Of a stretch of 64,000 bases of DNA, positions 17,432-19,113 are shown piece after piece. The first letter of the stretch is position 1. Each line of letters begins with the position of its first letter. The notes below the pieces were generated by a model that saw only the letters and a list, made by a program, of their open reading frames with translations, was not told the DNA's origin and searched no databases. The stretch comes from Burkholderia pseudomultivorans (lineage in GTDB: Bacteria > Pseudomonadota > Gammaproteobacteria > Burkholderiales > Burkholderiaceae): positions 2,852,001-2,916,000 of the forward strand of contig NZ_CP013377.1 of NCBI RefSeq assembly GCF_001718415.1, given 5' to 3'. The translations under genes and the position numbers were made by a program.

Positions 17432-18655
17432 TCAGGCCGGCGGCCGGAACGCACGCGTCGCGGAGGGTGCATGTGCATGCTGCTCCAGGTAAGCCAGCGC
17501 ATCGGCGAGCGCCAGCACCTGCGACTCGCCGTTTCTCATGCGCAGCGACACCGCGCCGGCCAGCGCCTCCTTGCGCCCGGTCACCGCGACGATCGGCGCG
17601 GCCAGCGCGCGTGCGTCGAAGATCTTGCGCGGCAGGCGTTCCGCACGGAAGTCGCGCAGCACGCGGCAGCCGATCGCTTCGAACGCGGATGCCACACGGT
17701 CGGCAAACGCGCGTTCGTCATGCCCGATGTTCGCGACGACGATCTGGTCGGGCGCGAGCCACGTCGGCAGCCAGCCTTCGTAGTGTTCGAGCAGCACGCC
17801 GATAAACCGTTCGAGGCTGCCGAGCACCGCGTGATGCAGCATGACGGGCACGGCTCGCGCCCCGTCCTCCGCGACGTACGCCGCGCCGAGCCGCTCCGGC
17901 AACACGAAGTCGAGCTGAATGGTCCCGCACTGCCATTGCCGCCCCTGACGGTCGAGCAGGTGAAACTCGAGCTTCGGGCCGTAAAACGCGCCCTCCCCCG
18001 GCCGCACGGCAAAGTCGAGGCCGGCCGCCCGCGCGGCGGACGCCAGCATCGCTTCGGCGCGGTCCCAGACCGCTTCGTCGCCCGCGCGCACCGCCGGCCT
18101 CGTCGACAACGCCACGTCGAACCCGCCGAATCCGAAGTCCGCATAAATCGACTTCAGCAACATGCAGAAGCGCGCGACTTCGGCCTCGACCTGATCGGGC
18201 ATGCACAGCACGTGCGCGTCGTCCTGCGTGAATGCACGCGCGCGCATCAGGCCATGCAGCGCGCCCGACGGCTCGGCGCGATGCACCGCGCCGAACTCCG
18301 AATATCGAACCGGGAGATCGCGATACGAGCGGACGCCTTTCCTGAAGATCTGCACATGGCACGGACAGCTCATCGGCTTGAGGCAGTACGGGCGATCGTC
18401 GCTCTGCAGCGAGAACATGCCGCGTCCGAACTTTTCCCAGTGGCCGCTCTGCTCCCACAGGCTGCGCGCGATGATCTGCGGCGTCCGCACTTCGGAAAAT
18501 CCGGCTTGCCGCATCCGGGCACGAATATAGTCTTCGACGACACGCAGCAGGACCATGCCGCGCGGATGCCAGAAAATGGCACCCGGACTTTCGTCCTGCT
18601 GATGAAACAGCTCGAGCTTGTTGCCGAGCACTCGGTGATCGCAGTCATCCATCAT
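17432..18655 (-). CDS. Short threonyl-tRNA synthetase paralogue lacking the N-terminal editing domains
   Basis: A 407-residue class II synthetase that is catalytic core plus anticodon-binding domain only; normal ThrRS is about 640 residues with N-terminal TGS and editing domains. Motif 2 is clear (FGAVHRAEPSGALHGLMRAR, Arg126) and motif 3 has LGSLERF with Arg283. The three zinc ligands that recognise threonine are kept: Cys97, His148 and His274. Differences from E. coli ThrRS include PGH to PCH (Cys99) and IHR to LHH (His275). The start at MMDDCDH follows a GGAG site. It would charge tRNA-Thr but cannot clear Ser-tRNA itself. It is preceded by a threonine-codon attenuator. Roles could be starvation backup, inhibitor resistance or supply of Thr-tRNA. 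Confidence 0.9.
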   Translation of the reverse strand: MMDDCDHRVLGNKLELFHQQDESPGAIFWHPRGMVLLRVVEDYIRARMRQAGFSEVRTPQIIARSLWEQSGHWEKFGRGMFSLQSDDRPYCLKPMSCPCHVQIFRKGVRSYRDLPVRYSEFGAVHRAEPSGALHGLMRARAFTQDDAHVLCMPDQVEAEVARFCMLLKSIYADFGFGGFDVALSTRPAVRAGDEAVWDRAEAMLASAARAAGLDFAVRPGEGAFYGPKLEFHLLDRQGRQWQCGTIQLDFVLPERLGAAYVAEDGARAVPVMLHHAVLGSLERFIGVLLEHYEGWLPTWLAPDQIVVANIGHDERAFADRVASAFEAIGCRVLRDFRAERLPRKIFDARALAAPIVAVTGRKEALAGAVSLRMRNGESQVLALADALAYLEQHAHAPSATRAFRPPA

Positions 18656-18694
18656 GTTCTCCGCTGATATTCGATGCCGAATACGACGGAGCAT

Positions 18695-18724
18695 GAAAAA
18701 AGCCCCGTCGCATGCGGCGGGGCC
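18695..18724 (-). terminator. Intrinsic terminator of the threonine attenuator
   Basis: On the minus strand GCCCCGCCGC-ATGC-GACGGGGC folds into a GC hairpin (six pairs, one mismatch, two more pairs) followed directly by six Ts. It lies 23 bases after the leader-peptide stop and 40 bases before the ThrRS paralogue start, where an attenuator terminator is expected. Confidence 0.85.
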
Positions 18725-18779
18725 TGGGATGGTTCGAAGCACTGAATTACGACGCGCGACATCCTCCCGACCCGCCATG
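18711..18779 (-). promoter_or_regulatory. Antiterminator pairing in the ThrRS leader
   Basis: The leader segment CATGGCGGG (18771-18779, minus strand), just after the Thr codons, is complementary to CCCGCC-GC-ATG in the 5' arm of the terminator (18711-18721), apart from a two-base bulge. A ribosome stalled on the Thr codons would leave this segment free to break the terminator; a ribosome reaching the leader stop would cover it. No folding energy was computed. Confidence 0.7.
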
Positions 18780-18830
18780 AGCGGTCGTGGTGGTGGTGGT
18801 GGTCGTGGTCGTGACGAAACGTGCGTTCAT
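18747..18830 (-). CDS. Threonine leader peptide with ten consecutive Thr codons
   Basis: A 27-residue open frame: MNARFV, ten threonines in a row encoded only by ACC and ACG (18783-18812), then AHGGSGGCRAS and TAA. It is the sensing element of a ribosome-mediated transcription attenuator for the ThrRS paralogue: scarce Thr-tRNA would stall the ribosome in the Thr run. It resembles in logic the enteric thr operon leader and the pheM leader of pheST, but is not homologous by sequence. No ribosome site precedes the ATG; the predicted transcription start coincides with it, so it may be translated from a leaderless mRNA. Confidence 0.85.
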   Translation of the reverse strand: MNARFVTTTTTTTTTTAHGGSGGCRAS

Positions 18831-18836
18831 GCGGTG

Positions 18837-18865
18837 AATCTAGTCGACTCGCTGGCGGCTGTCAA
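18837..18865 (-). promoter_or_regulatory. Sigma-70 promoter of the attenuator and ThrRS paralogue
   Basis: On the minus strand a perfect -35 box TTGACA (18860-18865) is separated by 17 bases from TAGATT (18837-18842, 4 of 6 matches). The predicted start point is six or seven bases on, at or next to the leader ATG (18830). Confidence 0.7.
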
Positions 18866-19113
18866 CAACGCGCGTGATGCCGACTGTCGTGCGCGCGTGC
18901 GTCGGCGGTCCGCTCGCTGCGCATCGAATCGAATGACTTTCGCGTACCTTGTGCGAGGATGCCGACAAAGCACCGATGGCGGTTTGAGCCGATGATGAAT
19001 CAGATCCGCACGTGTCGATATCGACCGTCCGGGCGGTTCCACCGTGCGATCCTGAAGCGATGCGTGTATCGTCCGGTTTCATCCCGCCTGCCATTTCATC
19101 TCGCGCCACTCAC

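Follow-up and report, generated by a model that had tools for sequence, protein, structure and literature searches.

A threonine attenuator before an auxiliary threonyl-tRNA synthetase gene in Burkholderia pseudomultivorans, and related leaders before other genes

The DNA analysed here, a 64,000-nucleotide stretch of Burkholderia pseudomultivorans (contig NZ_CP013377.1, positions 2,852,001 to 2,916,000; the window), carries on its minus strand thrS2, a gene for a minimal threonyl-tRNA synthetase (ThrRS), preceded by a short leader with a run of Thr codons. A first-pass annotation had described a promoter, a ten-Thr leader frame, an antiterminator segment, a GC terminator followed by six Ts and a ThrRS-like gene, and all of these are present where it had placed them (Table 1). 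The leader frame, read from the sequence, encodes MNARFVTTTTTTTTTTAHGGSGGCRAS. Six segments of the leader RNA can enter alternative pairings: region 3 pairs either with region 2, forming the antiterminator (2:3), or with region 4, the terminator 3′ arm, forming the terminator (3:4); region 5 pairs either with region 6, which holds the Shine–Dalgarno (SD) sequence of thrS2, or with region 4 (4:5). The gene opens with two adjacent ATG codons, and because the spacing from GGAG is 3 nt for the first ATG and 6 nt for the second, the second is probably the start in use.

Table 1 Features of the thrS2 leader and gene, in window coordinates.
Feature	Position	Strand	Basis and remarks
Sigma-70-type promoter, TTGACA-17-TAGATT	TTGACA 18865-18860, TAGATT 18842-18837	minus	Sequence; TAGATT six bases 5′ of the leader ATG
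Leader open reading frame, 27 codons, ten consecutive Thr	18747-18830	minus	ATG at 18830, stop ends at 18747; probably leaderless
Region 1, Thr codon run, ten codons	18783-18812	minus	Pairing with region 2 possible
Region 2, GGCGGGTCGGGAGG, antiterminator 5′ strand	18763-18776	minus	Sequence and folding
Region 3	18716-18732	minus	Partner of region 2 (antiterminator) or region 4 (terminator)
Intrinsic terminator	18696-18723	minus	Hairpin 18723-18702, then TTTTTT 18701-18696
Alternative 4:5 hairpin, terminator 3′ arm with anti-SD strand, U tract bridged	18676-18718	minus	Excludes terminator and SD hairpin
SD hairpin, region 5 (18692-18683) with region 6 (GGAG 18662-18659)	18656-18692	minus	Sequence and folding
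thrS2, minimal threonyl-tRNA synthetase, 407 amino acids	17432-18655	minus	Starts ATGATG 18655-18650

The product, ThrRS2, consists of the class II catalytic core and the anticodon-binding domain only; domain analysis finds neither a TGS nor an editing domain, which bears out its earlier description as a minimal paralogue. Its score exceeds the NCBIfam thrS cut-off, and from the sixth residue onward it aligns with the catalytic part of solved ThrRSs. In that alignment the Cys and His residues recognised as zinc ligands are kept (positions from PMC9880928, matched by eye; this and the other papers cited are used in excerpt). The source genome (7.96 Mb, three contigs) encodes a housekeeping ThrRS on a different contig, a 676-amino-acid open frame 53% identical to ThrRS2, beside which ThrRS2 stands as a second copy. 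A covariance model of the leader, described below, matches only the window leader in this genome (E ≤ 0.001); nothing similar was therefore found at the housekeeping ThrRS gene. A quick tree was made from 30 minimal and 23 full-length ThrRSs, a sample gathered partly through leader matches, unlike the protein-search loci that follow; in it the minimal enzymes form one side of one branch (SH-like approximate likelihood ratio test 100).

Twenty-six minimal ThrRS genes with readable upstream DNA were identified, among the matches listed, by protein similarity alone, the leader being left unused. Within the genus, 19 of the 65 genomes searched by protein encode a full-length minimal ThrRS (62–100% identity). 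A scan of species genomes, for which 80 loci were listed and five at contig edges left out, added Paraburkholderia unamae, Acidocella, Azospirillaceae, Ferrovibrio, two other alphaproteobacterial metagenome-assembled genomes (MAGs) and one MAG labelled Archangium (Myxococcota), again among the matches listed; one locus whose own record has no upstream DNA (L099) is represented by another from the same contig (L010). All 26 genes lie behind a Thr-rich leader frame with 5–11 Thr codons; a GGCGG or GCGGG segment is present in each leader, as is the GCCCCG arm of the terminator. Two are imperfect: in L086 one extra base shifts the stop codon, and L022 fits weakly. Outside this set, a shortened ThrRS2 gene (L191, genome G027) likewise lies behind a leader. 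Thr accounts for 210 of the 712 codons of the 26 leaders. Across the compiled ThrRS2 leaders the Thr codons are ACC (230), ACG (125), ACT (23) and ACA (9), so the third base varies and it is the amino acid itself that is kept. A chance run of codons is ruled out by the presence of the leader in all 26. The first-pass annotation had named missing conservation of the leader codons and terminator in related genomes as grounds for giving up the attenuator; conservation was checked and found in 26 of 26. Because every one of these genes has the leader, the element is, on sequence grounds, a real and old Thr attenuator. Near matches to the window locus came from a single record, a 3.5-Mb Burkholderia replicon, and wide plasmid carriage of the locus was rejected.

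The leader appears to lack an SD sequence of its own. We compiled 127 leaders, 26 from the protein search and the others through the RNA model, loci without a called leader frame being dropped. In 115 of them the leader ATG lies 35–37 nt from the first base of TTGAC, which, with a standard promoter, places the transcription start at or beside the ATG. None of GGAG, AGGA, GAGG or AAGG occurs at SD distance before the leader ATG in any of the 127. The leader is thus probably translated leaderless, for which Sinorhizobium meliloti trpL, whose RNA 5′ end is the leader ATG, provides a published precedent (PMC7298713).

Folding agrees with a switch. As expected of an attenuator, the full window leader RNA folds into the terminator with a closed SD (OFF state), and removal of the Thr run yields the antiterminator fold (ON state). 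The segment from region 2 to the end of region 3, which is the RNA that a ribosome halted at the Thr codons would leave exposed, forms a closed hairpin with a GGCGGG:CCCGCC-type stem in all 26 leaders. When the Thr run is present, region 2 pairs upstream in most of the 26 (exceptions, judged by eye, are L013, L014 and L090). The window leader combines a run of cognate codons (10 of 27 codons are Thr), an intrinsic terminator and a mutually exclusive antiterminator, the last by computation, and these features support a ribosome-mediated Thr attenuator of the transcription-attenuation type known from thr, trp and his.

Related leaders are not confined to ThrRS genes. The covariance model, built from region 2 to the terminator, matches 45 of the 65 genomes of the genus; in the family, with the genus counted in, 125 of 398 genomes have a match. 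Sorted by script, 100 fetched loci comprise 42 isochorismatase-type hydrolases (one, L216, of only 96 amino acids), 18 minimal ThrRSs, 15 DUF2917 proteins, 8 ABM-domain proteins, 5 MFS proteins (one shortened) and 1 full-length ThrRS, the remainder being broken or unclear; domains were confirmed on one example per class. The MFS protein is nearest to MdtH-type efflux pumps, with a score far below that family's cut-off. Compared with the minimal ThrRS gene of L093, four Burkholderia MFS genes show 92–95% identity over the 60 bases before the start, 64–82% by segment over the first 63 coding bases, and 15–43% beyond. It follows from this profile that the MFS gene carries a ThrRS2 leader together with the first ~21 codons. 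One Pseudomonas-like genome has a similar MFS gene with a ThrRS2-like N terminus (MDDFDHRALRNKLDL) and a 101-bit leader match; the ungapped identity counts are out of register for this gene. The genome of the window itself has only distant isochorismatase relatives (≤35% identity). Across the 65 Burkholderia genomes, 3 have both ThrRS2 and an intact leader-controlled hydrolase, 16 only ThrRS2, 23 only the hydrolase and 23 neither, a complementary pattern (one-sided Fisher P = 0.009, ignoring kinship) that is only a hint.

A phylum sample gave matches in 20 of 398 genomes, an Alphaproteobacteria class sample in 30 of 385 and a Pseudomonas-like genus of Gammaproteobacteria in 109 of 249, matches of any kind being counted, leaders without a Thr run included; the loci read are those returned for the best matches and 20 that were fetched. 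Among 27 alphaproteobacterial loci, 11 are minimal ThrRS genes (the leader of one, L284, has four scattered Thr codons), 9 are asd genes, for aspartate-semialdehyde dehydrogenase, 1 is a full-length ThrRS gene (L291) and 6 are unclear. The Pseudomonas-like genus gave 28 isochorismatase-type hydrolase genes, 1 MFS gene and 1 locus not resolved among 30 loci, and 9 hydrolase and 11 GNAT acetyltransferase genes among 20 further loci (examples confirmed).

Two of these classes differ in the codons of their leaders. The 11 GNAT leaders share the RNA architecture of the Thr leaders and are rich in Met (52 of 220 residues, initiators counted; for example MTYIRRMNMMCSSMTASGGP), and each could possibly be a Met-tRNA attenuator of a detoxifying enzyme. 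GNAT loci with such leaders, two of which were confirmed as GNAT genes, are L331, L335, L336, L338, L339, L341, L342 and L344–L347 in the Pseudomonas-like genus and L186 in Burkholderia. In Alphaproteobacteria, asd lies behind leaders with Thr and mostly Lys codons (L263, L265–L267, L277–L279, L281, L288, L293 and L295–L297; for example MFTTTKRTTKTTTASGARGGVRA), which are likely Thr/Lys biosynthetic attenuators. Two further classes, both weak model matches without a Thr run, were rejected as Thr attenuators. These are the DUF2917 leaders (the 15 of 100 loci and L233, L236 and L238) and the alphaproteobacterial DUF1127 leaders (...TRFGWAVGG... or similar). The DUF2917 loci of Burkholderiaceae (L224–L229 and L231–L242) have a similar terminator and SD hairpin, with a peptide ending, for example, in ...GGPLGACAR; the DUF1127 leaders (L253–L255, L258–L260 and L264) end in ...MTRFGWAVGGVAR or similar and have the same kind of terminator (one example confirmed). 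Broken or shortened hydrolase, ABM, MFS or ThrRS genes also lie behind leaders (L148, L151, L165, L169, L171, L173, L187, L190, L191 and L216), some of which have no leader start; gain and loss are frequent.

Full-length ThrRSs behind a Thr leader were found in two cases. One (L161, also L348; G078:C2:853243-854400) is a second ThrRS copy in its genome, with the motif FYSPK and therewith Ser at the position of Escherichia coli Gly463; around it, no antibiotic cluster or non-ribosomal peptide synthetase (NRPS)-like gene is evident by eye in 34 kb. Ser463 makes ObaO, the self-immunity ThrRS for obafluorin, resistant to that compound, and Gly463Ser in E. coli ThrRS confers resistance to obafluorin and borrelidin (PMC11252418). 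As read from its sequence context, this locus would favour ThrRS inhibition as the natural trigger. The other (L291, also L372; G832:C2:1206806-1209020) is alphaproteobacterial and has the Thr-run leader MRTHPVLRSTATTTTTATGGRWRMRA. For the minimal ThrRSs, the known resistance substitution of Gly463 (to Ser or Ala) is ruled out by the motif FYGPK, which the window gene shares with 90 of 90 short loci (some of which repeat one genome), and any resistance would need a basis other than residue 463. Another full-length second ThrRS, ~51% identical to the query, occurs in Burkholderia-type genomes (L350, G014:C4; L351, G050:C488); no covariance-model match was found at either ThrRS gene, and the motif of L351 is FYGPK.

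Downstream of the terminator, the leader may contain a second layer of control. In the 4:5 hairpin, the terminator 3′ arm and loop pair with region 5 and the U tract lies inside the loop. The window hairpin has a folding energy of −29.6 kcal/mol (z score −7.15), and 0 of 200 shuffled sequences are as stable. At least 8 pairs form across this hairpin in 158 of 158 folded segments, in every class of downstream gene, DUF2917 and GNAT included, a count that has no shuffle control, unlike the folding energy. By the latter, z is −2 or lower in 134 of the 158 segments (among them 36 of 51 ThrRS2, 5 of 5 MFS, 8 of 8 ABM, 37 of 39 Burkholderiaceae hydrolase and 25 of 28 Pseudomonas-like hydrolase). At pair 4 of the outer helix, G-C, A-U or C-G is seen in 56 of 68 distinct arms and some pairing, G-U included, in 59, with 66% expected to pair when the letters are redealt and 0 of 2,000 shuffles as good; for pair 6, 7 of 2,000 shuffles are as good, and pair 5 is not significant (142 of 2,000), all pairs being counted by script in arms picked by the predicted outer pair, which biases them towards pairing. 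Region 5 is transcribed after the termination point. The 4:5 pairing can therefore form only in read-through RNA, and if it acts it must do so on translation or stability.

The computed accessibility of the SD points the same way. In the window, the probability that the SD is open is 0.44 with the antiterminator enforced and 6 × 10⁻⁷ with the terminator enforced; adding region 4 gives 0.34, a value that 0 of 100 shuffled region 4 sequences match. The ratio of SD opening between the ON and OFF states exceeds 1 in 41 of 50 ThrRS2, 5 of 5 MFS, 23 of 36 Burkholderiaceae hydrolase, 15 of 20 Pseudomonas-like hydrolase and 1 of 1 ABM leaders (15 of the 127 leaders skipped). For 33 of 38 ThrRS2, 5 of 5 MFS, 26 of 39 hydrolase and 2 of 6 ABM leaders, SD opening with the native region 4 exceeds that with 80% of the shuffled versions (11 leaders skipped, and a few more without a usable start). 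These models make a convincing case for the SD layer in the window and in many of its relatives; for the hydrolase and ABM genes it is unproven.

Several known systems resemble the window leader in part. The E. coli thrL leader (Rfam RF00506, Thr_leader) likewise has a Thr-rich peptide and a choice between antiterminator and terminator, and its tail is similar to the TTGNG tail of window-type leaders. Unlike thrL, however, these leaders control synthetase or other genes rather than thrABC, probably start leaderless and have a predicted SD layer; the window scores 15.1 bits (E = 2.1) against RF00506, far from the gathering score of 55, and is not a member of that family. A T-box was also rejected: no Rfam family reaches its gathering score in the window, and no T-box match is listed up to E = 10 for positions 18600–18900. 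Bacillus subtilis thrZ, which encodes a second ThrRS, is controlled by such a tRNA-binding T-box and induced when tRNA-Thr is uncharged, whereas the window uses a leader peptide. Streptomyces coelicolor trpRS1 encodes an auxiliary, indolmycin-resistant TrpRS under ribosome-mediated attenuation. It shares with the window an auxiliary synthetase beside a housekeeping one and a leader with the cognate codons; it differs in amino acid and phylum, and in that the leaders related to the window's also precede non-synthetase genes. Leader-peptide attenuation of a ThrRS paralogue had been called unusual in the first-pass annotation. The interpretation as such is supported; the word unusual should be toned down, as attenuated synthetase genes have precedents in trpRS1 and thrZ.

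A further precedent comes from Bacilli, in which His leader peptides are predicted before hisZ and a hisS paralogue, in a study that also discusses attenuators hopping between genes (PMC2965389). These, too, are predicted leader peptides before a synthetase paralogue, but they are His leaders of Firmicutes, and the excerpted text describes no SD layer for them (PMC2965389). The S. meliloti trpL attenuator RNA (rnTrpL) also begins at the leader ATG, but concerns Trp and a biosynthetic operon, and its product acts in trans (PMC7298713). ObaO is, like ThrRS2, a second ThrRS (PMC11252418), and L161 has its Ser463; ThrRS2, by contrast, is minimal and has Gly463, and no NRPS-like gene is evident around L161. 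In open-access literature listings we found no description of a Thr attenuator before a ThrRS or an isochorismatase-type hydrolase. The kind of attenuator is known; the architecture is a variant, probably leaderless and with a predicted SD layer, and the set of outputs is unexpected. The leaderless start, the SD layer and the related leaders before other genes go beyond the first-pass annotation.

We propose that transcription starts at or beside the leader ATG and that the leader is read without an SD. With plentiful Thr-tRNA, the ribosome would reach the leader stop, region 2 would be covered or paired with the Thr run, the terminator would form and the RNA would end; in any read-through RNA, the anti-SD strand (region 5) would close the SD (region 6). 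With scarce Thr-tRNA, the ribosome would presumably stall on the Thr run, the 2:3 hairpin would form and transcription would continue. Antitermination would at the same time free region 4 to pair with region 5, so that the SD opens, a coupling that we infer for the living cell. The output in the window would be a spare ThrRS without an editing domain. We consider it probable that the locus is a Thr attenuator for an auxiliary ThrRS and belongs to a portable regulatory element with SD release, a failure of charging being the most likely signal. In Burkholderia and the Pseudomonas-like genus in particular, because related leaders precede hydrolases, efflux-type MFS and ABM proteins and the Ser463 ThrRS, the trigger would most likely be failed charging of tRNA-Thr (through a ThrRS inhibitor, zinc loss or starvation) and not a need to make threonine. 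More tentatively, and with some doubt, the element may be a portable leaderless cassette of proteobacteria in which a stalled ribosome sets off a chain of mutually exclusive helices, first 2:3 and next 4:5, so that termination is prevented and the SD is opened as well; its exchangeable codon run (Thr for ThrRS2, hydrolase, MFS and ABM genes, Met for GNAT) would make it an alarm for the failure of a given aminoacyl-tRNA synthetase, answered by target replacement, efflux and detoxification.

A number of observations weigh against this interpretation. The window antiterminator alone is only mildly better than its shuffles (z −1.72), and the Paraburkholderia-type and Myxococcota relatives have poor U tracts. 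The SD coupling is uneven among relatives, and hydrolase SDs hardly open in either state. Closure of the SD is stronger than in 95% of 60 shuffles for only 33 of 51 ThrRS2, 4 of 5 MFS, 23 of 39 hydrolase, 5 of 20 Pseudomonas-like, 3 of 8 ABM and 0 of 1 full-length ThrRS leaders, and in opening the SD the native region 4 outperforms 95% of its shuffles in 17 of 38 ThrRS2, 5 of 5 MFS, 21 of 39 hydrolase and 0 of 6 ABM leaders. As noted, ThrRS2 keeps Gly463. To these are added the alphaproteobacterial asd and single-copy ThrRS loci discussed below. In a plain attenuator, the ribosome on the Thr run would decide termination, and the 4:5 and 5:6 hairpins would play no part. The choice between 2:3 and 3:4 suffices for regulation, and in a sizeable minority of leaders the SD coupling is weak or reversed; against this stand the presence of the 4:5 pairing, possible only in read-through RNA, in all folded segments across unrelated downstream genes, and the paired changes on both sides of its helix. 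On balance we think a plain attenuator somewhat unlikely.

A Thr attenuator senses uncharged tRNA-Thr whatever the cause, and starvation and synthetase failure look the same to it. The signal could thus be low threonine, with ThrRS2 adding charging capacity as part of general charging control, an explanation that we judge unlikely. It draws strength from asd, a biosynthetic gene, under Thr/Lys leaders in alphaproteobacteria (one example confirmed), and from L291, the only ThrRS gene found in its alphaproteobacterial genome and one with Gly463 (FYGPK), a locus that favours general charging control. However, no threonine-biosynthesis gene lies behind the leaders in the Burkholderiaceae and Pseudomonas-like loci read; the outputs there are synthetase, hydrolase, MFS and ABM proteins, and GNAT with a Met-rich leader, and an extra synthetase would be useless when the amino acid is missing. 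ThrRS2 might instead be a backup for zinc limitation, with loss of charging replacing Zur as the signal. ThrRS needs a catalytic zinc, and the Anabaena ThrRS T2, induced by low zinc, is defective in editing, its errors being edited in trans by T1 (PMC4787780); ThrRS2 likewise has no editing domain. Yet ThrRS2 keeps the recognised zinc ligands, by eye, and would need zinc as well, and the hydrolase, MFS and ABM outputs do not fit zinc, which makes such a backup decidedly unlikely. It is very improbable that the leader peptide acts in trans like peTrpL of Sinorhizobium, its conserved GGxxGG tail serving a peptide function: peTrpL is indeed made from the leaderless trpL (PMC7298713), and most ThrRS2 leaders have a similar tail behind the Thr run, but the tail codons are antiterminator region 2, which explains their conservation, and several hydrolase leaders stop right after GGP or GGS.

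The related leaders before efflux-type, hydrolase and other genes suggest a little-known alarm for the failure of an essential enzyme. If this is correct, many Burkholderiaceae and Pseudomonas-like genomes would carry a codon-specific alarm for synthetase failure, and the hydrolase, MFS, ABM and GNAT proteins would become candidate defences, so far unknown, against naturally occurring inhibitors of synthetases. The leader would also provide a ready-made reporter for the discovery of such inhibitors. If true, a single alternative helix that couples antitermination to SD release, as predicted here, would be a clean two-layer version of classical attenuation.

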